This document shows, piece after piece, positions 8,185 through 50,842 of a stretch of DNA of 50,842 nucleotides (position 1 is its first letter; the number at the start of each line of letters is the position of its first letter). The notes beneath the pieces are model-generated. The model saw only the letters and a program-made list of their open reading frames with translations, searched no databases and had not been told where the DNA came from. Source of the DNA: Sandaracinus sp. (GTDB lineage Bacteria > Myxococcota_A > Polyangia > Polyangiales > Houyiibacteriaceae). Both the position numbers and the translations under genes were made by a program. The stretch lies in assembly GCA_002699025.1 (NCBI GenBank), contig PABA01000107.1:1-50842 (forward strand). Direction: 5' to 3'.

Positions 8185-8190
8185 ATCGTA
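8185..8190 (-). promoter_or_regulatory. -10-like hexamer before gloB
   Basis: TACGAT on the minus strand ends 7 nt before ATG 8177, with no Shine-Dalgarno sequence between. Consistent with the leaderless pattern of the window. Confidence 0.35.
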
Positions 8191-8306
8191 GTACACGCCA
8201 CCGGGGTTGGAGAGGGGCCGCTCCCTTCGCGCATCGCTCCCGGCACCGGCCCCGCGAAGCGCCCTCGGTGGCCCACCCGACACGGCCTTCCGCTCGCCGA
8301 CCACCC

Positions 8307-8315
8307 TGCTACCTT
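8307..8315 (+). promoter_or_regulatory. extended -10 element before the TerB-like gene
   Basis: TGC-TACCTT (hexamer 8310-8315) ends 6 nt before ATG 8322. It matches the TANNNT consensus of leaderless promoters and has the TGn extension. Confidence 0.45.
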
Positions 8316-8321
8316 CGCTCC

Positions 8322-8741: not shown

Positions 8742-8885
8742 GAGGGCCTCCGGGCGCTGCCCGAAAACGCTGCGATTTCGAGCGCCCCACCGATCGACTG
8801 GGGCCCGCGGCTCGACGCGTCGCACCCAAGCCCTACGCTCCGTCGGCCCGGCCCCCACGGCCCCCTCCCCCCGAGGTCCCGACCC

Positions 8886-28235: not shown

Positions 28236-28242
28236 GCCCCTC

Positions 28243-28248
28243 AAGCTA
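28243..28248 (-). promoter_or_regulatory. -10-like hexamer TAGCTT before the HtpX-like gene
   Basis: TAGCTT ends 7 nt before GTG 28235 on the minus strand. The GAGGGG within the space could alternatively be a ribosome-binding site, so this one is ambiguous. Confidence 0.3.
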
Positions 28249-28331
28249 AGCACGCGGCGCCGCGCGCCAACCCCGGGAGTCCCTCCCTCCCGTCGGGGCA
28301 CCATCCGCCAACCGCCGCCCGGGCCTCGACC

Positions 28332-32042: not shown

Positions 32043-32914
32043 TCAGCCGCCGACGCCGAGCTTCGCGAGGAGCGCGTCGAGCTGGTCGAAGTCGGCGTAC
32101 TCGATCGCCACGACGCCCTTCTCGCCCTTGCCCTGCTCGATGCGCACCGGCGCGCCGAGGGTGTGGGAGAGCCGTCGCTCGAGGTCGCGCACGTTGGCGC
32201 TCTTCTCCGGCGGCCCGGCCTTCTTCGCGCCCTTCGAGCCCCCGCCGCTCGTGCCGCGCGCCCGCCGCTCCACCTCGCGGACGCTGAGCTTCTTCGCCGA
32301 CGCCTCGCGCCCGAGCTTCACCATCGTCGGCACGTCCGGCGCCGTCAGCAGCGCCCGCCCGTGCCCCTCGGCGAGCTTGCCGTCCTCGATCAGGTCGAGG
32401 ACCTCGTCGGGCAGCTTCAGGAGGCGCAGCGAGTTCGCCACCGTCGACCGGTCCTTGCCGACCTTGGTCGCGACCTCTTCCTGCGTATGCCCGAACTCGT
32501 CGATGAGCCGCTGGAACGCCCGCGCCGTCTCGAGCGGGTTCAGATCCTCGCGCTGCAGGTTCTCGACGAGGGCCGCCTCGAAGGCCGCCGCGTCGCCGAG
32601 CTCGCGCACGAAGATCGGCACCTCCTTCACGCCGGCCCGCTGCGCCGCGCGCCAGCGCCGCTCGCCCGCGATGATCTCGAAGCCGCCCCCACTGACGCGC
32701 TTGCGCACGAGGATCGGCTCGAGGACGCCGTGCTCCGCGATGGAGGCCGCCAGCTCGTCCAGGGCCGCGTCGTCGAAGCGCCGCCGGGGCTGGTCCCGGT
32801 TCGGGTGGAGCTCCTCGATGCGCGCCGAGCCCGTGCCCTTCGGCTCGCTCTTCGGGGGCGCCGCCGGGAGCAGGCCGTCGAGGCCGCGCCCGAGTCGCTT
32901 CTTCTTCGCCGCCA

Positions 32915-32915
<1 letters not shown>
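32043..32915 (-). CDS. parB: chromosome-partitioning protein ParB
   Basis: 290 residues. The N-terminal GRGLDGLL motif (typical for contact with ParA), the CTP-binding boxes GERRWRA (84-90) and ENLQREDLNPLE (~118-129), and a helix-turn-helix (HTQEEVATKVGKDRSTVANS, ~143-162) are all intact. The C-terminal ~45 residues form a dimerisation domain. It slides as a CTP clamp from parS sites and works with ParA. Its start overlaps the parA stop (TGATG), so translation is coupled. No parS-like TGTTCCACGTGGAACA was seen in the window. Confidence 0.95.
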
Positions 32916-33682
<767 letters not shown>

Positions 33683-34334: not shown

Positions 34335-34396
34335 GGGGGGCGGGGAGTGGGGGAGGGGGCGGGGATCTCCGGGCGCTCGAAGCCGCTCGCGGCGTT

Positions 34397-34511
34397 GGCC
34401 TCCCTTGAAATGGCGCTGCCATTCCTGCGGTCGGCCGCCTTGCGAGCGACTCCGAGCGCCTCGGAGCTCCTCCGCCCCCTCCCCCACTCCCCGCCCCCGA
34501 ATCCACTTCGG
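34397..34511. repeat. 115-bp repeat, copy 1
   Basis: Aligned without gaps to copy 2 (34556-34670) with five differences over 115 bp. It begins GGCCTCCCTT and ends ATCCACTTCGG. It includes a C-rich stretch that could pair with the G-rich segment at 34335-34363. Confidence 0.9.
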
Positions 34512-34555
34512 GCTCTCTCGTTCGTGACCTCGAAGGAAGCACTTGCCGCGACGCT

Positions 34556-34670
34556 GGCCTCCCTCGAGATGGCGCTGCCATTCCTGCGGTCGGCCGCCTT
34601 GCGAGCGACTCCGATCGCCTCGGAGCTCCTCCGCCCACTCCCCCACTCCCCGCCCCCGGATCCACTTCGG
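34556..34670. repeat. 115-bp repeat, copy 2
   Basis: Second copy of the unit at 34397-34511, 159 bp further on and about 96% identical. A 7-bp-stem hairpin (34671-34688) follows directly. Confidence 0.9.
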
Positions 34671-34695
34671 CCTCGTTGGGAAACGAGGGGATGGT

Positions 34696-34852: not shown

Positions 34853-37800
34853 TCAGACCTGGATCTGGATCCCCAGCGCCTCGCGCAGCTTGAAGTAGTT
34901 CTCGCTCACGCTGAAGAGCACCAGCTCCTTGAGCTTGTCCTTCGGCGGCAGGTCCACGCTGCCCTCGGGCGGCAACACCTCGATCATCTTCTTCGCCGTC
35001 ACCAGGTCGTTGCACACCAGGAAGCCCGCCCGGCACGCCGAGAGCTCCACGGTCTGCATCCACCGCTTGATGTCCGCACGCCCACCCTGGTCGTCCACGA
35101 ACTTCCGGCACACGGCCCGGAGCCCATCCATCTGCGCCGCGTTCATGTGCTGCGAGAGCGGCTGCGCCCACTGATCCACCTGCGGATCCGCCGGCCCCGT
35201 CCCCGAGAGCCGCAGCGCCGCGAGCAGCAGGAAGCGCAGCTCCGTGTGCGAGCTGAAGAGCGTCCGCACGAAGTGCTCGCTCAGGTAGTACGTCAGGAAG
35301 CGACCGAGCAGGAACATCAGGTCCTGCGGGCTGTAGCCGCTCAGCAGCGTCGAGCCGCTGATCACCGCCGGCGGGTTCGACCCCGGCAGGTGCGCGAGCC
35401 CCCCGGGCGTCTGCTGCTGCAGGAAGAGCCGCGGCTGCGTCGGGATGTTCAGCACCTGCTGCACGAAGCCGAAGGTCCGCGCGAAGGTCACCGTCGACGA
35501 CGCCGGGTCCACCGGCTTCAGCTTGTCGATCTTCAGCGCCTTGTCCGACGCCTGCTTCACCGCCAGCACCGCCGGCGCCATCAGCTCCATGATCTTGCTG
35601 ACGTAGCGGTCCTCGTCCGGGTGCAGCAGCTCGCTGAACCACAGGTTCCGCTCCACCCGGCCGCGCGGGCGAATCGGCCCCTGCGGCCGGTACTGCGTGT
35701 AGAACTGCTGCTGCTCGGCGTCCGCCTTCTGCAGGAAGCTCAGCGTCGCCGCCAGGCACCACGCCTTGTCGTAGGCGCGCGCGTCGAAATAGAGCTTGTA
35801 GAGCGCCCGGTACGAATCCACCCGGTAGGGGTCGTTCCGGAGCAGCCACTGGTGCTCCTCGATGGCCATGTCGACCCGGTCGCCCATGAGCGTGTACAGC
35901 TCGGCGAGGATCTGGTGCTGCTGCGGGTCCCCGGGCTTGAACGTCGCGGCCGTCTTGAAGGCCTCCGCCGCCGCCTCGTAGTTCCGCTGCCGATCTCGGT
36001 AGATGATCCCGAGCGTGTAGAAGAGGTTGTGCTTCAGGTCCTCGCGGGCCGGCTCCTTGATGATCCGGTGGATCATCTTCCGGTACGCCCGCTCGAGCGC
36101 CTTCCAGTCCTTCTTCGCGTTCAGGATCTTGTTGATCGCCTCGAAGGCCTTCAGCTGGTCCGGATCGAGATCGAGCGACTCGTTGAACTTGTCGAGCGCC
36201 GCGTCCGCGTCCTTCAGCTCGTCACGGGTGATGACGGCGATCGTGTACTTGTACTTCGCCTTGACCTTGTCCCGCGTCTCCAGCGCCTCGATCTGGTCGA
36301 TGATCTGGATCGCGTCCTCCCACTGCTTGGTCTCCTGGTAGGCGACCAGCAGCTTGTGGAGCATCCGGTGGTCCTCCGGCTTGATGTCGGAGGCCTCGGC
36401 CCAGGACTCGATGGCCTTCTGCGCGTTCCCGACCTTCTCCTTCCAGAGCGTGCCGATGGCGTCGAGCAGGTCGAAGCGCTCCTCGAGGTCCGTGACCGTC
36501 TCGAGGATCTGCTTCTTGAAGTGGATGACCTGCTGCCACTCGTTCTGCTTCTCGTAGAGCCCGACCACGGCCTCGAGCGTCGGCCGGTGGAACGGGTCCT
36601 CCTCGAGCGCCTTGTCGAACATGTTGAGCGCCTTGCGCCGCTCGCCCTGCTCGCGCTTGATGACGCCGAGGCGGAAGAAGATGTCGGTGATCTCGTCCGG
36701 CGCGAGCGAGTCGCGGTGGTGGACGAGGAGCATCTGGTAGAACTTGAAGGCCTTCGCCCAGTCCTCCGCCGCGTAGTGGCTCGCCGCCACCCCGAGCAGC
36801 GTCGGCAGGTGCGTCGAGTCGATCTGGTAGGCCTTCTCGTAGGCCTTGATCGCCTCCGCGGTCTTCCCGAGCTTCATGCTCGTCTCGCCGAGCGTGAAGG
36901 AGAGCCGATGCTGCTCGTCCGGCTCCCGCTTGCCGCTCCGCTTCACGAGCATCTCGAGCAGCGGGAACGCCTCCTCGTAGCGCTCCTGCTTCTGATACTC
37001 GTCCACGAGCGGCATCGCCGCGTCCTCGTTGTCCGGGTCCTGCTTGAGCGCGGCCTCCCAGACCTCGATGGCCTTCGCGTGCTCGTCGAGCCGGTCCTCG
37101 TAGAGGCCGCCGAGCGCGACCAGCAGCTCGGCCACGCGCCGCGGGCTCTGCGTGTAGCTCGCCTCCTGCTCGTAGAGCTTCGCGGCCGCGAGCCAGTCCC
37201 CGCTGTCGAGCTGGATGTCCCGCATCGCCGCGATCGACTCCAGGTGCCCCGGCTCGATGTCGAGGGCCATCTGGTACTTGTCGAGCGCCGAGACCCGGTC
37301 GCCGAGCTCCTTGTCGAGGATGCGGCCGCTCCGGAAGAGCAGGTCCACCTGCTGCTGCGGCTCCTGCACCAGCCGCGCGAGCTGCTCCATCATCTCGAGC
37401 GCCGAGGCGTGGTCCCCGCGCTTGTCGTAGATGCGCGTCAGCGCGTCCAGCGCCTCCACGTCCTGGTCGTCGATGTCGAGGACCGCCAGGTAGGCGTCCA
37501 CCGCGCGATCCGGCTCGTCCAGGTCGCCGGCGAAGGTCTCGCCCATCGCCTTGTACACGCGGATCCGCTCGCTCCGATCGGGCGTCGCGGTGACGTGCCG
37601 CTCATACGTGTCGATGAGCTTGTCCCAGTCCTTCATGTGCCGGTAGAGCCGCGCGAGCGCCTGGAGCGCGCCCTCGTGCATCGGGTCGATCTCCAGCACC
37701 TGCTCGTGGCACTGGGCCGCCTCGCCGGGCTTGATGAACTCCTCCTCGTACATCCCGGCCATCTGGGTCAGGACGCCGATGCGCTCCTTCTCCGTCGAGA

Positions 37801-40800
37801 CGACCTCGAACTGCACGCGGAGCACCTCGAGCAGGTCCTGCCAGCGCTCCGTGCGCGCGTAGAGCCGCTCGAGCCCCTTGAGCGCCTGGAGGTTGAACTC
37901 CTCCTGCTGGCGCACCGCCGAGTAGGTCGCGATGGACCGCTCGACGTCCTGCGTCCGGTCCTCGTAGACCTCCGCGAGCTTGAGCTGCGTCGCGATCAGC
38001 TCCTCGCCCTCGACGGCCTTCGTCTTCTGCTCGAGGAGCTCCACCAGGCGCTGCCAGTTGCCGCGCTCCCCGTAGATGCGCTCGAGCTTCTCGATGGCGT
38101 CGACGTTCGAGGGCATCACCTCGAGCGCCCGCTCGTAGTAGCCCGTCGCCTGGTCCGGGATGTTCAGGTGGGTCGCCGAGAGGTCGCCCATCTTCACGTA
38201 GGTCTCGGCGAGGATCTCCGGATCGTCGGCCGTCTGAACGATCTGCCCGTAGGTCTGCGCGAGCGCGTCCCACTGCTGCGTCTTCTCGTACAGCTCCGCC
38301 GTCGAGATCATCAGGTGGACGTTGCCCGGGTCCACCGCCTGCACCTGCTGGTAGTAGGGCAGCGCGTAGTCCGGGTGATCGAGCTCCTGCCCGTACCACT
38401 TCGCGCACTGCAGGCAGAGGGTGATCTTCGTGTCCTGGTCCTGCGCCTCCTGGAGCGCCTCGTTCGCCGCCGTGAGCAGCTCGTTCCACTTGTTCGTGGC
38501 GCGCGTCACGCGCGTGAGCTCCTCGACCGTCGGCTTGTCCGCGTAGTCGAGGCTCCAGGCGACCTGGAGGGCGTCGAAGGCCTGGTCCTTGTCGTCGAGC
38601 TTCTCCTCGTAGACCTTCGCGACCTTGCCCAGGTAGCGCACGCTCTCCGAGAGGTCCTCGGTCGACTCGACGCGCACCAGGTACATGTCGATCAGGTCCT
38701 CCCAGCGCTGCGCGTCCCGGTGCAGGACCTCGAGCTGCTGGAAGGCGAACTCGTGCATCGGGTCGAGGTCGAGGATGCGCTGGTAGGCGCTCGTCCCGCC
38801 GTCCGGGTTGTCGAGCTGCTCGGCCCAGGTGCCCGCGATCGTGAGGAGCTGCTCGACCTGCTTCTCGGGCGTCTCCTCGAAGGCGAGGACCCGCTTCTCC
38901 ATGACGCCGACGGCGTCCTCCCACATCCCCTCCGTGCGGTGGATGTGCTCGAGGGCGTCCATGGCCGCGAAGTTCGACGGGTTCAGCTCGATGGCCCGGT
39001 TGTAGGCGTCCACCGCGTCCATCGGCTGCTGCAGCTCGACGTTGTAGAGGTGGCCGAGCTGCATGTAGACGTTCTCGATCTCGGCGTCTTCGAGCGTCGC
39101 GGCGCCCACCTCGATCACCCGGTGCAGCGTGTCCACCAGCTCGTGCTGCTGGTTCCCGGCCCGGTAGATCTCGGCGATGTGGAAGAGCGCGAAGGTGTTG
39201 CCCGGATCGATGTCCAGGACGCGCTCCCAGCTGTCGAGAGCGTTGCGCTCGCGCTCGAGCTTCTCGTACCAGATGCGCCCGAGGTCGGCGTAGACCTGCA
39301 CGCGCATCGCGTCGTCGTCGACGACGTTCGCCTCGCGCTCGAGGATCTCCACCAGGTCCGCCCAGGCCTCCTGCTCGGCGTAGATGGTCCCGAGGGCGTT
39401 CAGCGCCATCGGGTCCTCACCGCGGAGGTCGAGGACCTCCTTCCAGAGGTCGATGGCCTTCGCCGGGTCGTTCAGCTGCGTGCTGGCGAGGTACGCCATC
39501 TTGCTGAGCACCTCGGCGCGCTGCGTGTCGCCGAAGACGACCTCGATCTCCTTCTGGAACGCCGCGTAGAGCGCGTCCCAGGCCTGCTGGCGCGTGTAGA
39601 TCTCCTGGAGCGCCGTGATCGACTCGGCGTGCTCCGGCTCGAGGTTCCCGAGCACCTGGTCGTAGACCTGGATCGCCTGCTCGGTCTGCCCGAGGTCGTT
39701 CTCGAGCACCTGCCCGAGCCGGTAGTGGAACTCGACCAGGTCCTGCGGGATGTCCGACGCCTCGATGCGCTTGCGGAGCACGTCCGCGAGCGCCGCGTGG
39801 GCGCCGTTGGCCTCGTAGATGCGGTCGAGGGCCGCGAGCGCCTCCTCGTCCTTCACGTCCACGCCGAGCACGTAGCGGTAGGCCTCCTCGGCCTTCGCCA
39901 CGTCGGCGAGCTCCTCCTCGTAGACGCGCGCGAGGCGCTTGCCGAGGAAGACCTTGTGCTCCGCCTGCTCGGTCATCTGGATGCCGTCGGCGTAGGTGCT
40001 CGCGAGCTGGCCCCAGCCGTCGAGCATGCCGCCGAGGCGTTCGACCTCCATCAGCGTGTGATCGTGCGCCGGGTCCTCGAGGAGGGCCCGCTGCATCCAG
40101 AGGAAGGCGCGCTCGTGGTCCGCCGCGCGCTCCTCGGCGATCTCGGAGATGCGGTGCATCATCGAGACGCGCTCGATCGGGTCGCCCTGGTAGTTGAGCT
40201 GCACCTCGTGGACGTTGAGCAGCCGGTCCCAGGCCTCGCTCATGCGGTAGAGCGGCTCGAGGATCTCGCCGATGCGGAGCGGCTCCACGCCGTCCGAGAA
40301 GAGCAACTCGAGCGCGGTCATCGCCGGCTGGTGCTCGGGCGCCGCCGCCAGGATCTCCTGGTACTGCTCGATGGCCTTCTCGGTCTGGCCGAGGTGGTTC
40401 TGGAAGACCTGCCCGAGCCGGAACTGGAGCGTGAGGATGTCGTCCGGGCTCGCGGCGACCTGCGTCTCCTTCTCCAGGATGTCCGCCAGCTCGGCCCAGC
40501 GCTCGGTCGCTTCGTAGAGCCGGTCGAGCGCCTCGATGGCCTGCACGTGCCCCGGGTCCGCCTCGATCACGAGCTTGTAGCGCTCGATGGCCGCGTCGAC
40601 GTCGCCGACCTGGACCTCGTAGATCTGGGCCGTGCGGAGCGCCATCTCGATGACGTCGGTCGGGTGCTCCTCGCGGATCTTCTGGATCTCGACGTCGTAG
40701 AGGCGCGTGACCTCCTTCCACTGATCGGTCATCTCGCCGAGCCGCTCGAGGCTGCCCAGCGTGAGATCGTGGCGGTTGTCGAGGGGGAGCGCCCGCGCGT

Positions 40801-43800
40801 AGGCCTGGAAGGCCGCCTGCGGGTCGTCGAGCTGCATCTCCGAGAGCTCGGCCACCTGGTGCAGGAGGTCGACCTTCCGGATCGGATCCTCCTCGTGGGC
40901 GATCTGCACCTCGTGGACGCTGACGAGCTTCTGCCACTCGCCCATCTGCCGGTAGACCGGCTCGAGCACGCCCGCCGCGGCGACCGGCTCGACGCCCTCC
41001 GAGACCATGGACTCGAGGGCGTTCAGCGTGGGCTCGTGGTCCGGCGCGACCTCGAGGATCTCGCGGTAGATGTCCACGGCGCGGATCGCGTCGTCGAGCC
41101 GGTGATGCCAGAGGTCCGCGATGCGGTAGCGGTAGGAGATGACCTCGCTCGGATCGGCCGCGAGATCGGCCTCCCGCTCGAGGACGCTGAGCAGCTCCTG
41201 CCACTGCTCGGTGGCCTGGTAGAGCGCGTCGAGGCGCCCCAGCGCCGTCAGATCGTCCGGGTCGATCTCGAGGATGCGCTGGTAGCTGTCGATGGCCTTC
41301 GCGTTGTCCCCGAGCTCCCGCTCGTAGACCGCGCCGACCTCGACGTAGAGCCCCTTCTTCTCGTCCGGATCGACGACGATGTCGGCCTTCGTCGTGTAGA
41401 CCTCGAGGAGCTTCTCCCAGTTCTCGAGCCGCAGGTTCAGCTCGATGAGCTTGTCGAGGCTCTGGACGTCCTCGGGGTCGATCTCGAGCGCCTTGTGGTA
41501 GACGCCGATGGCGTCGTTCGGCCGCTCGAGGAGCTCCTCGTAGATGGCCGCCGCGCGGTAGAGGTAGTCCTTCTGCTCGTCCGGCGAGGTGAGCATCGTG
41601 GACTTCTTCAGGTAGATCTGCGCGAGGTCCTCGTAGCGCTCGGAGAGCTGGTAGAGGCGCTCGAGGGCCGTCGCCGCCTCGAGGTGCATCTCGTCGAGCT
41701 CGAGCACCTTCACGTAGTGCGCGATGGCGCCCGGGTGATCGCCGAGCTGGTTCTCGCGGATCTGCGCGGCCTTCACGTGGAGGTCGGCCGCGAGCATCGG
41801 ATCGTCGAGATCCTGGAGCTGCTCCTCGTAGGTCTTGGCGAGGGCCTCGGCGTCGCCGATCACCGGCGTCAGGCGCTCGAGCTGCTCCTGCGTGGAGGCG
41901 TTGCTCGGGTCCTCCGCGAGGGCGCGCGAGTAGCTTTCGAAGGCCGCGTTGTAGTCGTCGAGGGCGACCTCGTAGAGCTCGGCGATGCGATGGAGGAGCT
42001 CGACCCGGCGCTCCGGCGAGGAGGCGTGCTTCGCCTGGATCTCGTGGACGCCGATGAGCTTCCGGACCTCGCCCGCGTCGCGGTAGATGGGCTCCAGGAT
42101 CTCGGCGATGAGGAGCTGGTGCTCCGGCGCCTGGAGGAGCCGCTCGAGGTTCGCGAGCGCCGCCTCGTTGGACGGCTGCCGCATCAGCACCTCGCGGTAG
42201 ATCTCGATGGCCGCCTCGGTGGCGTCCATGCGCTGCTCGCGCGGCTCGGCGAGACGCAGCATGAGCTGGATCTGCTGCTCCTCCTCGACCGCGAGCTCGA
42301 GGCGCCGGTTCACGTTGTCGGCGAGCTCGGCCCACATCTCCTGGCGCTGGAAGAGGTCGTCCAGGGCCGCGAGGGCGCGCTGCGAGGTCGGATCGATCTC
42401 GAGGATCTCGTTGTAGACGCGGATGGCCGTCTCGGGGCTCTCCAGGAACTCGTCGTGGATCGCGGCCATCTGCGCGAGGAGCTCCTCCTTCTCGGTGGGC
42501 TCCATGGTCTGCTCGGCGCGCGCGCGGAGCACCTGCACCAGGTCGCTCCAGCGCTCCGTGCGCCGGAAGAGCGCGTCGAGCTGGAGCAGCACCTCGACGT
42601 CGCCCTCGTCGTCCTCGAGCACCTTGCGGTACGAGGCGACGGCGCCGTCCACGTCCTCGAGCTGCGTGTCCTGGATCTGCGCGGCCTTGATCCACAAGGC
42701 GCGGCGCAGCATCGGATCGTCGTTCGAGCCGGCGAGCTCCCCGAGGAGCGTGACGAGCTGCGGGAAGCGGTCCTGCGAGATCGCGATGGTCTCGAGCCGG
42801 GCCAGCGTGTCCTCGCTGCCCGGCTGCTCCGCGAGCGCCTCCGAGTACGCACCGAAGGACTTCTCCGCGTCCTGGAGCTGCTCGCCGTAGACCTCACCGA
42901 TCTTCGTCAGCAGCTCGAGGCGCTCGTCGCTCGTCTCGGCGCCCGCGTGGAGCACCCGGAGCGCACGGATCAGCGGCTCGTAGTGGCCGCCGACCTCGTA
43001 CACGGGCTCGAGGATGCGCGCCGCCGTGACCCCGACCTCTTCGTCGTCGAGGAGCGCTTCGAGCGCCTCGCGGCCGCCCTCGTGCTCCGGGAGGATCGTG
43101 AGGACCTCCCGGTAGAGCTCCACGGCGCGCGGCTTGTCGGCGAGGTGCTGCTCGAGGGCGCGGCCGAGGCGGAACTTCAGCGCCGCCATCTCCTCGTGGC
43201 TCTCGGCGAGCTCGATGCGCCGCTCGAGCGTCGAGGCGAAGTCCTCCCAGCGCTCCTGCTGCTCGTAGAGCCGGTCGAGGGCGCGGAAGGCGTCGACCTC
43301 GCCGTGCCCGTACTCGCCGAGGATGTCGTTGTACGCCGCGATGGCGTCGTCGGCGCTCTCGAGCTTCTCCTCGATGAGCGCGGCCCGCTGGTAGGCGAGC
43401 TGCCGGCGCGCGTCGTCGTCCGTCTCGAGCTGCATGCGGCGCTCGAGCACCTCGAGGAGCTCGGCCCACTTCTCCGTCTGCTCGTAGAGCTCCGTGAGGG
43501 CCGTGATGGCCTCGACCTGATCGCCCCGCAGCTCGTAGACGCCGCGGTACTGGGCGATGGCGTCCTCGACCTTCTCCACCTTCCGGAGCAGGCCGCCGAA
43601 GGTGAGCCGCAGCTCGATCTCGTCGTCCTCGGCTTCGGCGCCCTCGATGGCCTTCGCGTAGGCCTCGAGCGCCTTGTCCCAGTCCTTCGTCGCCTCGGCG
43701 AGGCGCTCGACGTCCTCGCGGACGACCTCCTGCTGGGGCATCACGGCGAAGGCCTCGAGGTACTTCTCGTAGGCCGTGTCCGCCTTCCGCAGCCGCTCCT

Positions 43801-45007
43801 CGTAGAGCAGGCCGAGCTCCCGCAGGAGCGCGACGCGGCGCTCCGGCTCCATGTCGTGCCGGAGGCGCACCTCGTAGACGGGCGCGAGCTTCCGCGCGTC
43901 GTTCGCCTCCTCGTAGATCGGCGAGAGCGCCTCGGCCGCCTCGAGGTTGTCCGGATCGGCGTCCAGGACCTTCTCGTAGGCCCGGGCGGCGCGATCCGCC
44001 TTGTCCATCTTCTCGATCCAGAGCTTCGCCGCGCGGAAGAGGAGCGCGACCTTGTCCTCGAGCTCCGTCTCCTTGCCGTCGGCCTCGCGCTCGAGGATGC
44101 GGATCAGCTCGGACCACTTCTCGGTCTCGGCGTAGAAGTCCTCGAGCTCGTCCCAGGCCTTGAGCGCGACGTAGCGGCGCTTGAGCTGCTCCTGCGCGCG
44201 TCGGTCCCCGGGGTTGATGTCGAGGAGCTTCTTGAAGGCGCCCACGGCGCCGGCGTCGTCGCCGATCTTGTCGGCGTAGATCATGCCGAGCTTCTGGAGC
44301 TGCTTCGGATCCGGGTCGGCGTCCGTGAGGATCTCGAGCACCTCGGCGAGCGGCTTCCACTCGCGGGCGCGCTCGTAGAGCGTGGCGAGGGCGTCGAGCG
44401 CCTCCGGGTGCGTGGGCTCGTACTCGCGGACCTTCTCCCAGAGGCCGATGCAGACGTCCGGCTTGCGGATGCGCTTGGTGGCGAGCTCGGCCATCTCGAC
44501 ATAGCGCAGGCCGCGGTCGGCCGGGTCGAGGAGCTCGGCCTCCTTTTGCATGATGCCGATCAGGCTCTCCCAGTCGCGCCGCTTCTCGTACATCTCCTTG
44601 AGGCGCGTCATCGCCTCGATGTCCTGGGGCGCGTACTCGAGCACCTGCTCGAAGCACTTGATGGCCTCGGCCTGGTTGCTCGAGCGCTCGACGTACATCG
44701 TGCCGGCCTCGCGGAGCAGGCGAACCTTCTCCTCCGGGTCCTGGACGATCTCCGCCTTCGCGAGGATGGTCCGGATCACGTCCGACCAGCGCTTCTGGCC
44801 CTCGTACTTCTCGAGCTGCTCGTCGAGCTCGGCCAGCTGGGCCTTCTCCTCGTCGGTCAGCTCACGCGGCGGGGCGGCCTCGGCGGGCGCCTCTTCCGGC
44901 GTCTCCGCCTCCGCCTCGGTCCCCGCCTCGGCCTCCGCCTCTTCCGGGGCTTCGGCCTCCGTCTCCTCGGCCGATTCCAGGTTCTCGTCGTGCTCGTTCT
45001 CCGACAT
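34853..45007 (-). CDS. giant TPR-repeat protein (3,384 aa), GltI/AgmK-like
   Basis: One open frame of 10,155 bp. Residues 1-~50 are an acidic Glu/Ala-rich leader with no signal peptide. Almost all of the rest, to about residue 3,110, is a TPR-like superhelix: units of roughly 34-39 residues with recurring Y/W-x-x-L, A-Y-x-x-I/L-L-x-x-D-P and ALxxLYExxxxWxxL patterns; at that length the number would be around 80, an estimate from arithmetic. The last ~270 residues (from about RNLWFSELLHPDEDRY) form a different, globular domain. The size, repeat content and its place behind a TPR lipoprotein and an FHA/PglI-domain protein recall GltI (AgmK), the giant TPR protein of the Myxococcus gliding machine. 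It probably acts as a scaffold; location is not shown by sequence. The GltI assignment is inferred. Confidence 0.85.
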   Translation of the reverse strand: MSENEHDENLESAEETEAEAPEEAEAEAGTEAEAETPEEAPAEAAPPRELTDEEKAQLAELDEQLEKYEGQKRWSDVIRTILAKAEIVQDPEEKVRLLREAGTMYVERSSNQAEAIKCFEQVLEYAPQDIEAMTRLKEMYEKRRDWESLIGIMQKEAELLDPADRGLRYVEMAELATKRIRKPDVCIGLWEKVREYEPTHPEALDALATLYERAREWKPLAEVLEILTDADPDPKQLQKLGMIYADKIGDDAGAVGAFKKLLDINPGDRRAQEQLKRRYVALKAWDELEDFYAETEKWSELIRILEREADGKETELEDKVALLFRAAKLWIEKMDKADRAARAYEKVLDADPDNLEAAEALSPIYEEANDARKLAPVYEVRLRHDMEPERRVALLRELGLLYEERLRKADTAYEKYLEAFAVMPQQEVVREDVERLAEATKDWDKALEAYAKAIEGAEAEDDEIELRLTFGGLLRKVEKVEDAIAQYRGVYELRGDQVEAITALTELYEQTEKWAELLEVLERRMQLETDDDARRQLAYQRAALIEEKLESADDAIAAYNDILGEYGHGEVDAFRALDRLYEQQERWEDFASTLERRIELAESHEEMAALKFRLGRALEQHLADKPRAVELYREVLTILPEHEGGREALEALLDDEEVGVTAARILEPVYEVGGHYEPLIRALRVLHAGAETSDERLELLTKIGEVYGEQLQDAEKSFGAYSEALAEQPGSEDTLARLETIAISQDRFPQLVTLLGELAGSNDDPMLRRALWIKAAQIQDTQLEDVDGAVASYRKVLEDDEGDVEVLLQLDALFRRTERWSDLVQVLRARAEQTMEPTEKEELLAQMAAIHDEFLESPETAIRVYNEILEIDPTSQRALAALDDLFQRQEMWAELADNVNRRLELAVEEEQQIQLMLRLAEPREQRMDATEAAIEIYREVLMRQPSNEAALANLERLLQAPEHQLLIAEILEPIYRDAGEVRKLIGVHEIQAKHASSPERRVELLHRIAELYEVALDDYNAAFESYSRALAEDPSNASTQEQLERLTPVIGDAEALAKTYEEQLQDLDDPMLAADLHVKAAQIRENQLGDHPGAIAHYVKVLELDEMHLEAATALERLYQLSERYEDLAQIYLKKSTMLTSPDEQKDYLYRAAAIYEELLERPNDAIGVYHKALEIDPEDVQSLDKLIELNLRLENWEKLLEVYTTKADIVVDPDEKKGLYVEVGAVYERELGDNAKAIDSYQRILEIDPDDLTALGRLDALYQATEQWQELLSVLEREADLAADPSEVISYRYRIADLWHHRLDDAIRAVDIYREILEVAPDHEPTLNALESMVSEGVEPVAAAGVLEPVYRQMGEWQKLVSVHEVQIAHEEDPIRKVDLLHQVAELSEMQLDDPQAAFQAYARALPLDNRHDLTLGSLERLGEMTDQWKEVTRLYDVEIQKIREEHPTDVIEMALRTAQIYEVQVGDVDAAIERYKLVIEADPGHVQAIEALDRLYEATERWAELADILEKETQVAASPDDILTLQFRLGQVFQNHLGQTEKAIEQYQEILAAAPEHQPAMTALELLFSDGVEPLRIGEILEPLYRMSEAWDRLLNVHEVQLNYQGDPIERVSMMHRISEIAEERAADHERAFLWMQRALLEDPAHDHTLMEVERLGGMLDGWGQLASTYADGIQMTEQAEHKVFLGKRLARVYEEELADVAKAEEAYRYVLGVDVKDEEALAALDRIYEANGAHAALADVLRKRIEASDIPQDLVEFHYRLGQVLENDLGQTEQAIQVYDQVLGNLEPEHAESITALQEIYTRQQAWDALYAAFQKEIEVVFGDTQRAEVLSKMAYLASTQLNDPAKAIDLWKEVLDLRGEDPMALNALGTIYAEQEAWADLVEILEREANVVDDDAMRVQVYADLGRIWYEKLERERNALDSWERVLDIDPGNTFALFHIAEIYRAGNQQHELVDTLHRVIEVGAATLEDAEIENVYMQLGHLYNVELQQPMDAVDAYNRAIELNPSNFAAMDALEHIHRTEGMWEDAVGVMEKRVLAFEETPEKQVEQLLTIAGTWAEQLDNPDGGTSAYQRILDLDPMHEFAFQQLEVLHRDAQRWEDLIDMYLVRVESTEDLSESVRYLGKVAKVYEEKLDDKDQAFDALQVAWSLDYADKPTVEELTRVTRATNKWNELLTAANEALQEAQDQDTKITLCLQCAKWYGQELDHPDYALPYYQQVQAVDPGNVHLMISTAELYEKTQQWDALAQTYGQIVQTADDPEILAETYVKMGDLSATHLNIPDQATGYYERALEVMPSNVDAIEKLERIYGERGNWQRLVELLEQKTKAVEGEELIATQLKLAEVYEDRTQDVERSIATYSAVRQQEEFNLQALKGLERLYARTERWQDLLEVLRVQFEVVSTEKERIGVLTQMAGMYEEEFIKPGEAAQCHEQVLEIDPMHEGALQALARLYRHMKDWDKLIDTYERHVTATPDRSERIRVYKAMGETFAGDLDEPDRAVDAYLAVLDIDDQDVEALDALTRIYDKRGDHASALEMMEQLARLVQEPQQQVDLLFRSGRILDKELGDRVSALDKYQMALDIEPGHLESIAAMRDIQLDSGDWLAAAKLYEQEASYTQSPRRVAELLVALGGLYEDRLDEHAKAIEVWEAALKQDPDNEDAAMPLVDEYQKQERYEEAFPLLEMLVKRSGKREPDEQHRLSFTLGETSMKLGKTAEAIKAYEKAYQIDSTHLPTLLGVAASHYAAEDWAKAFKFYQMLLVHHRDSLAPDEITDIFFRLGVIKREQGERRKALNMFDKALEEDPFHRPTLEAVVGLYEKQNEWQQVIHFKKQILETVTDLEERFDLLDAIGTLWKEKVGNAQKAIESWAEASDIKPEDHRMLHKLLVAYQETKQWEDAIQIIDQIEALETRDKVKAKYKYTIAVITRDELKDADAALDKFNESLDLDPDQLKAFEAINKILNAKKDWKALERAYRKMIHRIIKEPAREDLKHNLFYTLGIIYRDRQRNYEAAAEAFKTAATFKPGDPQQHQILAELYTLMGDRVDMAIEEHQWLLRNDPYRVDSYRALYKLYFDARAYDKAWCLAATLSFLQKADAEQQQFYTQYRPQGPIRPRGRVERNLWFSELLHPDEDRYVSKIMELMAPAVLAVKQASDKALKIDKLKPVDPASSTVTFARTFGFVQQVLNIPTQPRLFLQQQTPGGLAHLPGSNPPAVISGSTLLSGYSPQDLMFLLGRFLTYYLSEHFVRTLFSSHTELRFLLLAALRLSGTGPADPQVDQWAQPLSQHMNAAQMDGLRAVCRKFVDDQGGRADIKRWMQTVELSACRAGFLVCNDLVTAKKMIEVLPPEGSVDLPPKDKLKELVLFSVSENYFKLREALGIQIQV

Positions 45008-45024
45008 GGCCTCGTGCTCCGACT

Positions 45025-45040
45025 GCGGACCGCGGTCCGC
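45025..45040. promoter_or_regulatory. perfect 16-bp palindrome before the giant TPR gene
   Basis: GCGGACCGCGGTCCGC begins 17 bp before the ATG of the giant gene, and a second hairpin (GCGCCC/GGGCGC arms, 45044-45063) lies just upstream. They could be operators, or structure in the 5' leader affecting translation. The 271-bp gap to the previous gene has no other recognised element. Confidence 0.35.
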
Positions 45041-45278
45041 CGTGCGCCCTCACGTGGGGGCGCGAACTCCATCCAGCCCGCTCGACGCGGACCCACCACG
45101 CCCGGCTCCCGCCGAGCACTCCACAAGACAAGCCACCGAGGGGTCTCCCCCTCGAGGGCGAAGGCCACGCCCTCGCCCGACCCGGGCCCGCTCCCCGGGT
45201 GTCGCGGCGACCGCACGGGCGCGAAGGGCGGCGCTGACCACCCTCGCGCGCTTCGTGCTCGACCGCCGCGCCCTCACC

Positions 45279-46154
45279 TCAGTTGACCGAGAGCTCCCCC
45301 AGCCGGTCGCGCGCGGCCTTGAGGTAGTGCGGCGGCGCGTCGGCGCCGGCGATCTCGACGAACTTCTTCAGGTAGCGCCGGGCCTCCTCGCGGTTCTCCG
45401 TGAGCGAGTAGGTCCAGCCGAGCGAGAAGAGCGCGTCGCGCATGCCCGGGACGATCTCCAGGGCGGCGCGGAAGTGCTCGATCGCCTGATCGTAGTTGCG
45501 CTGCTGCTGGTAGACGGTGCCGATGAGGTGATGGAGGCTGGCCTCCTCCTCCGAGTTCGGCATCGCGACCTCGAGCCCGCCGTTGAGCACCTGAGCCGCC
45601 TCGTCGAGGTAGTCCTGACCGAGGTTGGCGTAGAGGCGACCGAGCTGCATGTAGGCCTCGAGGAAGCGCGGGCCGTGCTCGATGGCCTCCGTGTAGCGCT
45701 CGAGGGCGCCCTGGCGATCCTCGAGCTCCTCGAGGACCTGGCCGAGCTTGAAGTAGGCCTTGAAGAGGTCCGGGTCGATCTCGATGGACCGCTCGAAGGC
45801 CTCCTTGGCGTCCTCCCAGTCCTCGAGCTGCATGAGCACCGTGCCGAGCTTCTCGTGGTAGCCGGCGACCTCGCCGTTCACGGCGATGGCCTGGTTGAGG
45901 TCGTCCTTGGCGCGCTCGAAGGAGCGCAGCTCGATGTGGACCAGGGCCAGGTTGTAGAACGCCTGGTCGTTGGTCGGGTCGATGGCCGTCGCCCGCTCGA
46001 GGCTCTTGACCGCGTCGACGTAGCGCTTCTGCTGCGCGTAGACGACGCCCTCGTTCATCTGGTTGACCGACTCCACGCGGGCCCGGGAGCAGTTGCCTCC
46101 CGTCAGGATGGTCATGGCCAAAAGGCCGAAGAGCAGGGTCGAAGCTCGCTGCAT
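45279..46154 (-). CDS. TPR lipoprotein, GltE/AglT-like
   Basis: 291 residues from ATG 46154, which has GGGAG about 10 nt upstream. The N-terminus is a signal peptide ending ILTGGNC, a somewhat non-standard lipobox (Asn before the Cys), so lipidation at C22 is likely but not certain. The mature protein is six to seven consecutive TPRs, for example a unit ending ERATAIDPTNDQAFYNLALV and the following ones, with good Trp/Leu/Gly/Tyr/Ala/Phe/Ala/Pro positions. It directly precedes the giant TPR gene on the same strand. A TPR lipoprotein in such a place matches GltE (AglT) of Myxococcus, an outer-membrane-associated part of the gliding complex; that link is inferred. Confidence 0.75.
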   Translation of the reverse strand: MQRASTLLFGLLAMTILTGGNCSRARVESVNQMNEGVVYAQQKRYVDAVKSLERATAIDPTNDQAFYNLALVHIELRSFERAKDDLNQAIAVNGEVAGYHEKLGTVLMQLEDWEDAKEAFERSIEIDPDLFKAYFKLGQVLEELEDRQGALERYTEAIEHGPRFLEAYMQLGRLYANLGQDYLDEAAQVLNGGLEVAMPNSEEEASLHHLIGTVYQQQRNYDQAIEHFRAALEIVPGMRDALFSLGWTYSLTENREEARRYLKKFVEIAGADAPPHYLKAARDRLGELSVN

Positions 46155-46290
46155 CGCTCTCAGATCTCCCAGGTGGAAAGGGCGTCCCATCGATGTAAGC
46201 AAAACGGGTCCGCGAGGGGCTCGCGGGGGGGTCGCCCGACTGGCCGACGCTCGGTCAGCCGAGGTCGCCGCCCGGTACGCGGGCCGGGCG

Positions 46291-46320
46291 ATACTAAAAG
46301 AGTTCCGCGTCGCGACTCAA
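46291..46320 (-). promoter_or_regulatory. sigma-70-type promoter of the TPR lipoprotein gene
   Basis: On the minus strand TTGAGT (46315-46320) and TAGTAT (46291-46296) are separated by 18 bp, in a locally AT-richer patch. The implied start near 46284 gives a ~130-nt leader to ATG 46154. Both hexamers match four of six consensus bases. Confidence 0.45.
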
Positions 46321-46695
46321 CCGTGAATTCGCGCATCTACGGCCACGCCGAGCCGCTCTCCGCCCCATTGCAGACAGGGCGGATCGATGAAGCCCCCTCG
46401 CCCGCCTCCCGAGCGCCCGACGCGCCGGCTCACCCGGCCCCATCCCGACGCCCCGCTCCATCCAGCTCCGCCTGCAGCACGCGCACAGCGTTCGATCATG
46501 CCGAACGAACACCGCGCCTCGCCCGAAGCACGCAGGGAGCCCATCGCCTCGCCCGCCATCCGCCCAGTCCGCACAGACGAGACCCAGGCGCGCCGCTGCC
46601 CCAGGGCGGTCGGAGGAGCGGCCCCCACATCCGTCCGCCCCCACGGAACCGCCTTCGTGCTCCGCCATGGAACCGCCCCGTGACGCCGCGCCCCC

Positions 46696-46925
46696 CATCC
46701 GCCCGGTCACCCCGAAGCGCCACCGGACGAGCCAAAGCGAGCGACCGACCCGCACCTGCGAAGCACTTCGTGGCGCGCGCCGCTGCCTGGCCCCGGCCGG
46801 GGGCCGCGCTCTCCATCCGCCCGGTCACCGCGAAGCGCTCCCGGACGAGCCAAAGCGAGCGACCGACCCACGCTCTGCGGAGCGCCCATGCTGCGCGCCG
46901 CCGCCCGGCCCCGGCCGGGGGAGCG
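46696..46925. repeat. 118-bp imperfect tandem duplication
   Basis: Unit A starts at 46696 and unit B at 46814, both beginning CATCCGCCCGGTCACC. They share GGACGAGCCAAAGCGAGCGA and CCCCGGCCGGGGG at matching places and differ at scattered bases and small indels, so the duplication is old. A weaker relative starts near 46557. Confidence 0.8.
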
Positions 46926-46993
46926 CCCCCATCTCCGCCCCGTAGCCCGGCCCCACGGAGCCGCTCCCCCGTACCGACGAAGAACCGACCCGT

Positions 46994-47126
46994 GTGACGC
47001 CGCGGCCACGCGGCGCCGAGCGGCCTACGGCCGCGCTGGTAAGCCAAAGATAGCGAGCGAAGCGAGCGGACACCGTGACGCCGCGGCCACGCGGCGCCGA
47101 GCGGCCTACGGCCGCGCTGGTAAGCC
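46994..47126. repeat. two perfect 52-bp direct repeats with internal palindromes
   Basis: Copies at 46994-47045 and 47075-47126 are identical and begin GTGACGCCGCGG. Each contains GCGGCC-TAC-GGCCGC, a stable hairpin. The 29-bp spacer contains AGCGAGCGAAGCGAGCGG. The perfect identity, unlike the diverged repeats to the left, suggests a recent duplication or ongoing conversion. Confidence 0.9.
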
Positions 47127-47132
47127 CAATTG

Positions 47133-47159
47133 AAAACGGGCCGCCCGAGGGCGACCCGT
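47133..47159 (-). terminator. terminator of the FHA/PglI-domain gene
   Basis: On the minus strand ACGGGTCGCCC and GGGCGGCCCGT fold into an interrupted hairpin (5-bp and 4-bp stems with a 2x2 internal loop), followed by TTTTC. It lies 23 bp past the stop codon of the FHA-domain gene. Confidence 0.7.
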
Positions 47160-47181
47160 CTTCGTGGGCTCGGTGTCGGCG

Positions 47182-49197
47182 TCAGCCGCCCGTCGACTGG
47201 AGCGCGAACGGGTAGTTGACGATGACGATGCCGCCCCCGTCCGGCGCCGGGAAGGTCCAGCGGCGCACGGCCTGGGTGATGCAGCTCTCGACGCGCTGGT
47301 TCCGGAGCGTGGTCTGCTGGACCATCGCCGTCTGCACCGCGCCGGTCGGCGAGATGATGAAGCGGACGGTCACACGACCCTCGAGGTCCGGTCGGGCGTT
47401 GAGCTCCTGCTCGTAGCAGAACTTGACCTCGTTGATGTGGCGCCGGATGACGCGCCGGATGACCTCCTTCGAGAGGCTGCCGCGGACGTCGGCGCGACCG
47501 GAGCGGATGCGAGGCACGCGGGCCGCGCGACCGCGGAAGCCACCGGCGCCGCGACCGTAGCCCTGGCCGCTCCCGCCGCCACCACCGTGACCGATCGTGC
47601 CGAGGTTGCCGAGGCCGATGGTGCCCTCGCCCGTGCCGCCGCCACCACGACCGGTGCCGCGCAGACCGAGGCCGCCGAAGCCGGCGTTCTCACCGATCTG
47701 GTCACCCATCAGGGCGCCGAGCGCGCTCATCGGGTCGTTGCCGAGGGCCGTGTCGCGGCCGAAGGGCGAGGTGGGCGAGTTCCACGCGCCCGTCATCGAG
47801 CGAAGGGTACCGAGAACACCGGCGTTCCGGGCCATCTCACGCGCCTGCTCGCGCGCCATGTGCGGGTCCTGGTTGTCCTCCGGACCCTCGATGCCGTAGC
47901 GGTTGTTGGTCTTCTTCGCTTCCTTCTTGCCCATCGCGCCTTCTTCACCCTTGTGGCGCTTGCCCTTGCCGCCGGCGTCGTCGTTCGCCTGCGACTCCTC
48001 GAGCCACTCGGGCGTCTCCTCTTCCTCCGTGGCCGGCGGCTCCATGAGGTACTTCACGAGCCGCGAGTCGGTGTTCAGGAGGTCGAGGTTCAGGCCGCCA
48101 CCGGCCGGCGGGATGAAGTACATCATCGCCAGCAGGCCGCCGAAGATGATCATCGAGCCGAGCACGTACGAGAACGGCTGCCAGTCGATGCTCATGCCGC
48201 CGGCGATCTTCTTGCCGGCCTGAGTCTGCTTGGTGACGAAGGTGAAGCCGTTGTGCTCGACCTTCACGGTCGCGCCCATCGGGATCTGGTACTGCTCGGC
48301 GCCCGGCACCTCGGCGCAGGGCTGGAGCTTCCCGCCCGCGCGGAGGTCCGCGATGGTCATCGTCTGGTCGCCGACCGTCACGCTGCCGCTCGCGCCCTGC
48401 GGGATCACCGCGGCGGCGCCGCCACCGGCCGCGACGACCAGGGGCATGCGGGAGGTGCCGAGGACGTCGGCGCCCATGAGGAAATCGACGTCCGCGTTCG
48501 GGGCCGGCTCACCGACGTAGAACGGGCGGAACGGCGTGAGGTGCTCGACGTGGAGGACCTGCCGGTCGCCCCACATCACCACGACCTCGACGGTCTGCTC
48601 GGGGGCCTCGACCTCGTCCGGGCTGACGGGCGGACCGCTCGCCACGATGCCGTAGGCGACCTGCTCGGGATCGCTCGGCTCCGAGCTCGTCGCCGGGGCC
48701 GCGACCGCGGGAGCCGCGGGGGCCGCGAAGGGGTTGGGCACCGCCGCCGGCGCGGGCGCCGACCCGGGGGCCGGAGCCGCGAAGGGGTTCGGGACCGAAG
48801 GCGCCGGAACGTCCGGCTTCTCCGAGGCGGCCGCGCCCGCGGGCGCCTCGTCGGCCACCACGGTCTCGTCCTCGTCCGCCGCGCCGGCCGCGCCGATCTC
48901 CACGACCACGCGCGTGTCGCCCAGAACGATCTCGTCACCGTTCTGGAGCTTGCACTTGTTGACCTTCTTGCCGTTGACGATCGTGCCCGAGGCCGAGCCG
49001 AGGTCGATGATGAAGATGTCATCGGGCCCGGTCACCTCGATGACCGCGTGCATGCGCGAGACGTTGTCGTCTTCGATGCGCAGGTGGCTCGAAGGGAGCT
49101 TGCCGACCTTGATGATGTCCTGGGTCAGCTGCTCCGTACGAACCAGCTCCTCTCCAGAATAGATCTGGAAAGTCATCGGGATACTGTTGCTCACCAT
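47182..49197 (-). CDS. FHA-domain, single-TM, AgmX/PglI C-terminal-domain protein (GltG/PglI-like)
   Basis: 671 residues. An FHA domain at ~12-100 has VGKLPSSHLRIEDDNVSRMH and GSASGTIVNGKK, keeping the phosphothreonine-binding Gly, Arg, Ser and Asn-Gly positions. A Pro/Ala linker (~110-175) and a domain beginning VEVVVMWGDRQVLHVEHL (~203-330) follow. One membrane helix lies at ~341-363. The rest is a charged and Gly-rich periplasmic linker, and the last ~95 residues (HINEVKFCYEQELNARPDLE..., ending YPFALQ) are an AgmX/PglI domain, TonB-like in shape. This layout matches GltG (PglI) of Myxococcus, which links the cytoplasm to the outer membrane. GTG 49194 is the better-spaced start after GGAGG; ATG 49197 is given as the default. 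Confidence 0.85.
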   Translation of the reverse strand: MVSNSIPMTFQIYSGEELVRTEQLTQDIIKVGKLPSSHLRIEDDNVSRMHAVIEVTGPDDIFIIDLGSASGTIVNGKKVNKCKLQNGDEIVLGDTRVVVEIGAAGAADEDETVVADEAPAGAAASEKPDVPAPSVPNPFAAPAPGSAPAPAAVPNPFAAPAAPAVAAPATSSEPSDPEQVAYGIVASGPPVSPDEVEAPEQTVEVVVMWGDRQVLHVEHLTPFRPFYVGEPAPNADVDFLMGADVLGTSRMPLVVAAGGGAAAVIPQGASGSVTVGDQTMTIADLRAGGKLQPCAEVPGAEQYQIPMGATVKVEHNGFTFVTKQTQAGKKIAGGMSIDWQPFSYVLGSMIIFGGLLAMMYFIPPAGGGLNLDLLNTDSRLVKYLMEPPATEEEETPEWLEESQANDDAGGKGKRHKGEEGAMGKKEAKKTNNRYGIEGPEDNQDPHMAREQAREMARNAGVLGTLRSMTGAWNSPTSPFGRDTALGNDPMSALGALMGDQIGENAGFGGLGLRGTGRGGGGTGEGTIGLGNLGTIGHGGGGGSGQGYGRGAGGFRGRAARVPRIRSGRADVRGSLSKEVIRRVIRRHINEVKFCYEQELNARPDLEGRVTVRFIISPTGAVQTAMVQQTTLRNQRVESCITQAVRRWTFPAPDGGGIVIVNYPFALQSTGG

Positions 49198-49275
49198 CGC
49201 CTCCGGTGGGGCCGCGGTCGCGTGGGCGACCCGGCAAATGCTTCCGTCCTACTGCCTATCCGTGCGTGGCTCGGC

Positions 49276-49530
49276 TCAGAGGTCCTCGACGGACTTGAGC
49301 ATCTCGGGGATGAAGTGCTCGCGGATGCGAATCAGCGACGCGCGCTGACCGCGGCGGCGAACGCTGAGGAGCTCACCGTCCGGTCGCACCAGATCACCCG
49401 AGACGAGGTCGTCCTCGAAGTCGTAGGTGGTCGCGTCTCCTCCGCCCGCCGCAGCGGGATCCTGGGCAGCAGCCGGAGCCGCCACACCGAGACCGAGAAG
49501 TACCGCGAACATCATCCCTCGAAGCTTCAT
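49276..49530 (-). CDS. small secreted protein at the head of the FHA/PglI cluster (GltF-like position)
   Basis: 84 residues from ATG 49530, with GGAGG about 8 nt upstream and a good promoter further up. A signal peptide (MKLRGMMFAVLLGLGVAAPAAAQ, cut after AAA-like sequence) leads to a 60-residue mature protein with a Gly/Asp-rich stretch and a conserved-looking end: FEDDLVSGDLVRPDGE, then basic residues, then LIRIREHFIPEMLKSVEDL. It lies 78 bp ahead of the FHA/PglI gene and is probably cotranscribed with it. In Myxococcus a small periplasmic protein (GltF) also precedes gltG; the match is by position and size, not sequence identity I can verify. Confidence 0.7.
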   Translation of the reverse strand: MKLRGMMFAVLLGLGVAAPAAAQDPAAAGGGDATTYDFEDDLVSGDLVRPDGELLSVRRRGQRASLIRIREHFIPEMLKSVEDL

Positions 49531-49585
49531 CAGGACATCCTCCACCGTGCTGCTTCGCACGTGATTCCAGGGCCGAAGCCGGCGC

Positions 49586-49615
49586 ACCATATCCCGCCGG
49601 GGCGAGCGTGGTCAA
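49586..49615 (-). promoter_or_regulatory. sigma-70-type promoter of the small-protein/FHA operon
   Basis: On the minus strand TTGACC (49610-49615) and TATGGT (49586-49591) are separated by 18 bp; they match five and four of six consensus bases. Transcription would start near 49579, about 50 nt before ATG 49530. It is the best classical promoter in the window. Confidence 0.7.
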
Positions 49616-50187: not shown

Positions 50188-50201
50188 ATCGGCATAGGGG
50201 G

Positions 50202-50266
50202 CCCGAGTAGTCGACTCGGGCTCCCCTGCCACACCACCTGGCATGCGGGTCCGCACCAGGCGGTTC
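50202..50266 (-). ncRNA. group II intron domains V and VI
   Basis: Domain V is 50230-50266 (minus strand begins GAACCGCCTGGTGCGG and ends CCAGGTGGTGTG), a long hairpin with the CGC catalytic triad. Domain VI is the hairpin CCCGAGT-CGACT-ACTCGGG (50202-50220), which should carry the branch point. Both are needed for splicing and look intact. Confidence 0.75.
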
Positions 50267-50277
50267 GATGGTTGAGG

Positions 50278-50842
50278 TCAGGGGGCCAGGCGTGGGAGGC
50301 CGAGCCCGTCGAAGAGCTTGTTGGGCAGCGCGATGTGGATGGCCATTGCGGAGTTCCGCCACCAGCGGCGCGCGTTCGCCGCGACTTGCGCCGCGGCGTT
50401 TGCGCTCATGCCTCGGGCGTGTAGCTCGCGGAACACGGTCGTGCCGCGCTTCCACTGTTTGAGCTGGTACGCCCGGAGCCGGTGTCGGATCCACTCGTCG
50501 AGCTCCCGGAACCGCTTATTCGTCGCGGCGACGCGGAAGTATCCGCGCCAACCGTTCAGGTAGGCGGCCAGGGATTGTACGACGTCGGCGAGGCTACGCC
50601 CACGCGTTCGGCGCGTGAGCTGTCGCACCCGGACCTTCATCTTGTGAAGAGCCTTGGGCGCAACGCGTAGCTTCACCTCGCCGCCCCGTCCGTACCACAG
50701 GCCGAAGCCGAGGAAGGGCCGGGACGCGGCCAGGGCCACCGCGCGAGGTATGACCGGAAGTTGTGGACCGGAGGCTTGAAGCAGGCGGCGTATCCTTCCG
50801 CGTGAAGACAACACGTTACCCAGTTCGCGCTGGGAGAAAGGA
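50278..50842 (-). CDS. ltrA: group II intron reverse transcriptase/maturase, C-terminal part (open at the window edge)
   Basis: The frame runs off the right edge. The visible part has FLGFGLWYGRGGEVKLRVAP, the end of the thumb/start of the maturase X domain, then SLAAYLNGWRGYFRVAATN, DEWIRHRLRAYQLKQWKRG and a conserved end ARRWWRNSAMAIHIALPNKLFDGLGLPRL, all typical of class C maturases. Directly before FLGF the usual N-x-x-K-(S/T) motif is missing: the segment reads LPVIPRAVALAASRP, which could result from a small deletion. The YADD polymerase site would lie outside the window, so I cannot say whether the gene is intact. Confidence 0.85.
   Translation of the reverse strand, partial: PFSQRELGNVLSSRGRIRRLLQASGPQLPVIPRAVALAASRPFLGFGLWYGRGGEVKLRVAPKALHKMKVRVRQLTRRTRGRSLADVVQSLAAYLNGWRGYFRVAATNKRFRELDEWIRHRLRAYQLKQWKRGTTVFRELHARGMSANAAAQVAANARRWWRNSAMAIHIALPNKLFDGLGLPRLAP

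Follow-up and report, generated by a model that had tools for sequence, protein, structure and literature searches.

A Glt-type gene cluster of a Sandaracinus genome, probably divided between two contigs by an insertion sequence inside a group II intron

The window analysed here is the whole of contig C118, 50,842 nucleotides long, from a Sandaracinus assembly of 9.24 Mb in 238 contigs. Four minus-strand genes between positions 34853 and 49615 had been compared in a first-pass annotation with components of the Myxococcus gliding machinery. All four are real genes and lie where it placed them. Codon-position GC supports the three large open reading frames (gltI, tprX, and gltG), while the gene status of the small 84-residue frame rests on its match to the CglF model. 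The right end of the contig lies inside a mobile element, 1.3 kb past gltF. The features are as follows.

34853..45007, minus strand: gltI (agmK), encoding a 3,384-residue protein predicted to be cytoplasmic and built of TPRs (TPR matches, gene order, and orthologues in relatives)
34967..35470, minus strand: C-terminal domain of GltI, M48-metallopeptidase-like but degenerate (hhalign; HExxH replaced by GRFLT)
45279..46154, minus strand: tprX, encoding a predicted exported TPR protein, 291 residues from the ATG (own HMM and synteny)
46203..47181, no strand: GC-rich, repeat-bearing spacer of about 1 kb between gltG and tprX (repeats of 118 nt x 2.1 and 55 nt x 2)
47182..49197, minus strand: gltG (pglI), 671 residues, FHA-TM-AgmX/PglI (NCBIfam profiles, AlphaFold model, and synteny)
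49276..49530, minus strand: gltF (cglF), encoding an 84-residue secreted protein predicted to be periplasmic (CglF model, signal peptide, and synteny)
50194..50744, minus strand: 3' part of a group II intron, with the C-terminal part of the RT/maturase at 50278-50744 followed by the intron 3' end (in-frame join with the RT on contig C10; the 3' end at 50194 is an estimate by eye)
50745..50842, no strand: right end of an IS inside the intron, within which the contig stops (terminal inverted repeat matching the end of C10, and a 9-bp target duplication)

The product of gltF has a signal peptide visible in the sequence and matches the NCBIfam model NF033764 (gliding_CglF) over its full length with 69.7 bits, below the curated cut-off of 90. 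In relatives, gltF is placed between gltE and gltG. The product of gltG aligns at residues 5-670 with positions 2-649 of the 650 in NF033760 (GltG), with 459 bits and an E-value of 3e-137, and its tail also matches NF033768 with 114 bits. The score of 459 bits is below the NCBIfam equivalog cut-off of 650 bits, a value reached by none of the 235 sampled Myxococcota genomes, although 228 of them match the model. Based on architecture and synteny, we assign the 671-residue protein as a GltG-family orthologue and not as an NCBI-named equivalog. The GltF- and GltG-like identities suggested earlier are thus confirmed by full-length profile matches, and the profile comparison that had been named as a way of placing the proteins outside the Glt families puts GltF and GltG inside them.

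The proposed layout of GltG, an FHA domain followed by one transmembrane segment and an AgmX/PglI end, agrees with both the profiles and an AlphaFold model built with 37 homologues. The model contains an FHA domain (residues 8-101), a second beta domain (201-326), and a C-terminal domain (563-667), all with pLDDT of about 90, together with a transmembrane helix (339-361) and a disordered Gly-rich linker or arm. The FHA fold superimposes on 3poa, a phosphothreonine-binding FHA domain, with a Z-score of 17. Residues R48, H50, and N75 are invariant in the 37 homologues, and the residue at S47 is Ser in 34 of them. By sequence, the tail matches TonB (1ihr) with an E-value of 0.0014; the similarity of GltG and GltJ to TonB has been discussed (PMC9389320).

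The 3,384-residue protein consists of TPRs nearly throughout and has no signal peptide. No dedicated family model matched it. The gene is 60-75% identical over its full length to orthologues located directly downstream of tprX in five relatives (G187, G168, G177, G149, and G125). We assign this protein as GltI by position and architecture, and the earlier description of a giant GltI-like TPR protein holds on the same two grounds, its TPR architecture and its distal place in the cluster.

The last 338 residues of GltI make up an additional domain. Profile-profile comparison of this domain with the M48 profile by hhalign gives 95-96%, against at most 5% for reversed, shuffled, and unrelated controls. 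The relationship is visible by profile-profile comparison alone: single-sequence hhalign against M48 gives 2%, and profile searches of Pfam and the PDB found no M48 homology in this region. A single-sequence fold of the C-terminus is poor (pLDDT 54). The HExxH motif is absent in 24 of 24 homologues of the domain, which have GRFLT or a similar sequence instead. The domain is therefore M48-like but not an active peptidase. It is found in 96 of 188 Myxococcota genomes, where it also ends other large proteins, and in the present genome it ends a 1,769-residue kinase-like TPR protein (C91:33386-38695), the kinase and TPR parts of which were read from the sequence. A search of the open literature, with most subscription papers outside its scope, found no mention of the M48-like domain of GltI, and the domain appears to be unreported.

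The gene between gltG and gltI, for which we will use the name tprX, can be read from the ATG as 291 residues or from an alternative TTG start at 46202 as 307 residues. The first-pass annotation took its product for the TPR lipoprotein GltE (AglT), an identification that did not hold. The product scores 45 bits against the NCBIfam GltE model NF033758, less than against general TPR models, and its gene lies downstream of gltG. A better GltE orthologue is encoded on contig C10, where it precedes gltF, scores 100 bits, is 60% identical to the GltE of G187, and has a lipobox. With an HMM of its own, tprX finds orthologues at 440-560 bits in close relatives, compared with about 40 for a GltE HMM. 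In loci long enough to show its position, the gene is flanked by gltG and gltI, except in a few lineages that do not have it. These comparisons argue that tprX is a conserved gene of the Myxococcota cluster and belongs to a family separate from GltE; as a conserved Glt-cluster gene it appears to be unreported. An N-terminal comparison shows a normal lipobox in other lineages (e.g., LLAGC). In the order to which this genome belongs, the conserved Cys follows GGN, GGD, or GGT (GGNC here), and lipidation of TprX in this order is uncertain. The spacer between gltG and tprX is 0-400 bp in most relatives. No coding frame of the size of gltH was found between gltG and tprX here or in the majority of loci covering this interval; two loci (L118 and L119) have candidate frames there.

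The genes that the window lacks upstream of gltF are found on contig C10. A genome search with the proteins of relatives places gltD and gltE at 28.1-33.1 kb of C10, a contig which ends 1.5 kb further on. The C10 and C118 ends carry matching imperfect terminal inverted repeats of the same IS, and the 9-bp target duplication GCGCGGTGG is common to the two IS flanks. The N-terminal part of the intron RT lies on C10 downstream of gltE together with the other end of the IS, and joining the flanks of C10 and C118 gives one uninterrupted 451-residue RT frame with the YADD motif. The group II intron RNA itself is recognised on C10 (Rfam RF02001, D1-D4) with 104 bits. Based on the inverted repeats, the target duplication, and the in-frame RT, we take gltC-gltD-gltE-[group II intron::IS]-gltF-gltG-tprX-gltI to be the physical order. 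The 98-bp IS end of the window has an exact second copy at C12:36071-36168, whereas the intron 3' half in the window is a single copy in the genome, and this difference accounts for the break in the assembly. On C10 the intron occupies 33.3-34.6 kb and carries the IS; a hairpin located downstream of gltE immediately precedes the intron.

Our main reading, to which we give a probability of about 0.9, is that gltF, gltG, tprX, and gltI in the window are one half of an ordinary and complete Myxococcota Glt cluster, which an intron-borne IS has split in this assembly. The gene order of relatives, a comparison that had been suggested earlier across Polyangia, supports the Glt identity of the genes. 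Five relatives of the same family or order have the same order contiguously, with gltE, gltD, and gltC directly upstream of gltF; one of them, the single-contig genome G177, has the same cluster. For a wider view, 80 named MAG loci were scanned with HMMs, each of which was made from the sequences of a few relatives. The intact seven-gene order gltC-D-E-F-G-tprX-gltI was found in 46 of the 80, and contig ends interrupt most of the remainder. L110, L111, and L134 extend past gltG and have no tprX-gltI there, and three loci show only a gltG-like gene. The order gltC-D-E-F-G-tprX-gltI is thus the commonest arrangement in the sampled loci, and the dispersed G1/G2 layout of M. xanthus therefore looks like a rearrangement.

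Most of the remaining machine can be located elsewhere in the genome. On C10, gltC scores 277 bits and the gltD product is 77% identical to that of G168. Two tandem OMP_myx_plus beta-barrel genes, with 69 and 50 bits at a cut-off of 60 bits, are located 7 kb upstream of gltC; judged by this broad barrel model and by linkage, they are probably gltA and gltB. A search for MotA/ExbB found six places in the genome. On contig C69 (L043) two divergent trios stand back to back, at 7270-9037 on the minus strand and 9925-11783 on the plus strand, each with one MotA/ExbB and two ExbD genes. The AglR-, AglQ-, and AglS-like proteins of C69 have 217, 159, and 192 residues; their M. xanthus counterparts have 245, 162, and 194. 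The second trio encodes proteins of 221, 185, and 200 residues. An AglR-type protein is present in 57 of 57 genomes of the order, with an adjacent divergent paralogue in nearly all, where the paired arrangement recurs. A trio that is clearly related lies one gene from gltG in L109. We assign the C69 trios as AglRQS-type motor genes. The architecture of GltJ (Zn-ribbon, GYF, TM, and TonB-like tail) is found in proteins encoded on C217 and C142, which are below the strict NCBIfam cut-off. A search for GltH/CglE gave a full-length match of 33 bits on C198, at a cut-off of 70, and a search for the CglB adhesin gave a partial match of 28.6 bits. A second core cluster occupies about 400-11100 of C123 (L056), with an OMP barrel and C-, D-, E-, F-, and FHA-less G-like genes, and is cut by the start of the contig. 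On C99 (L037; 10152-17237), a further MotA/ExbB gene and two ExbD genes are followed by the gene for a TPR protein of 976 residues whose tail is of the AgmX/PglI type, and by genes for a small protein and a lipoprotein; the set is possibly another motor-transducer system.

In M. xanthus, the corresponding genes are arranged as cluster G1 (gltD-J), cluster G2 (gltK-B-A-C), and M1 (aglRQS), and their roles have been described (PMC3169522). The present genome resembles M. xanthus in having homologues of GltC, GltD, GltE, GltF, GltG, and GltI, including the FHA-TM-TonB-like tail of GltG and a giant GltI with no signal peptide, and in having an AglRQS-type trio (1+2) and a ZnR-GYF GltJ elsewhere in the genome. 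In both species, gltE precedes gltF and a paralogous core cluster is present, the C123 cluster resembling G3-G5 (PMC3169522). In contrast to M. xanthus, where gltC belongs to the separate G2 cluster, gltC is joined here to gltD-E. The slot between gltG and gltI, which holds gltH in M. xanthus, is taken by tprX, and gltJ does not adjoin gltI. Between its gltH and gltI, M. xanthus also has MXAN_4864/4865 (agmV), which have been set aside as pseudogenes. GltI is shorter (3,384 residues compared with 4,132), the motor genes form two divergent trios at one locus, and CglB has no confident match in the genome. The ancestral gamma-/deltaproteobacterial core combines gltC, gltD, gltE, and gltG with aglRQS at one locus. 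These core genes are also found here, but the motor is unlinked and the Myxococcales additions gltF and gltI are present together with tprX. The FHA-less C123 paralogue is closer to this simple core.

By analogy with M. xanthus, in which the AglR-GltG interaction and its role in gliding have been shown (PMC3169522), the following mechanism may be proposed; all interactions and force transfer among the Glt parts are carried over from that system. A proton-driven AglRQS-type motor of 5:2 stoichiometry, encoded on C69, would act in the inner membrane on the transmembrane helices of GltG and GltJ. The flexible periplasmic arm and TonB-like end of GltG would pass force or position to GltF, GltE, GltD, and GltC (and TprX), and from the periplasmic TPR proteins it would pass onward to outer-membrane barrels of the GltA/B type. 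In the cytoplasm, GltI would form a huge scaffold of TPRs, and a phosphothreonine signal would be read by the FHA domain of GltG, so that the complex could be assembled and switched. The outcome would be directional movement of surface adhesion complexes and thus gliding. Sandaracinus amylolyticus has been described as gliding (PMC5010890). In the present species, gliding may be expected by analogy with M. xanthus. We also offer, as a tentative proposal somewhat short of even odds, that the Myxococcota gliding machine has in TprX, an exported TPR protein with a lipid anchor in many lineages, an extra core component for which the Myxococcus nomenclature has no name, and that GltI has a pseudo-metallopeptidase end in common with a Ser/Thr kinase-TPR protein. 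If so, control of the machine would involve a signalling layer of kinase and scaffold to which the GltG FHA domain and GltI are tied.

A complete Glt-type machine could also serve another envelope task, such as Nfs-like transport of spore-coat polymer, secretion, or predation. Nfs (G3 of M. xanthus) is the closest Glt paralogue and works in sporulation (PMC3169522), and it has homologues of GltC/D/E/G and the barrel in common with the present cluster. The very wide distribution of the cluster, small-genome lineages included, the weak CglB and CglE matches, and the second, FHA-less core cluster on C123 would all suit such a task. However, gltI is inside the present cluster and genes of GltJ architecture are present in the genome, whereas Nfs is without GltI, GltJ, and GltK (PMC3169522), and we consider a task other than gliding rather unlikely. 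The insertion between gltE and gltF raises a different question, since the intron and IS might uncouple the transcription of these two genes. On this basis the operon of this strain could be broken, with the cluster in decay or its expression altered, and the hairpin seen in the sequence ahead of the IS-bearing intron would fit. Against this, the insertion is intergenic, the seven open reading frames are all intact, and the gltE-gltF gap of about 200-470 bp in relatives makes separate promoters possible, so that a broken operon is improbable in our judgement.

The alternative raised in the first-pass annotation is a truly reduced set, possibly ancestral or repurposed, with no motor, GltJ, or outer-membrane parts. 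Only the four cluster genes are indeed within the window, and the statement that AglRQS, GltH, and GltJ are absent from it is literally correct, but it is uninformative given that the window is one contig which stops in an IS. The reduced set is contradicted by gltC, gltD, gltE, and the barrel pair on the abutting C10, and by the unbroken cluster in relatives. The motor and GltJ, regarded as missing, were recovered by genome search as the C69 trios and the C217 and C142 proteins. A classical cluster elsewhere in the genome, with the four genes as unrelated paralogues, had been raised as well; such a cluster does exist on C10, but as the other half of the same cluster. Together, the join with C10 and the searches of the genome refute the reduced reading and remove the false claim of a motorless, reduced Glt machine. 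The case shows how a system can falsely appear minimal when a contig breaks at a mobile element.

Some further features lie on the distal side of gltI. A repeat of 159 nt x 1.8 is found downstream of gltI at 34388-34674, and a parA-parB pair, also downstream of gltI, at 32043-33682. Genes of this kind are also near gltI in two relatives (both genes in G187, and a parA-like gene in G168). At 27249-28304 there is an M48 peptidase gene with an intact HEITH motif, which adjoins a thioredoxin gene.
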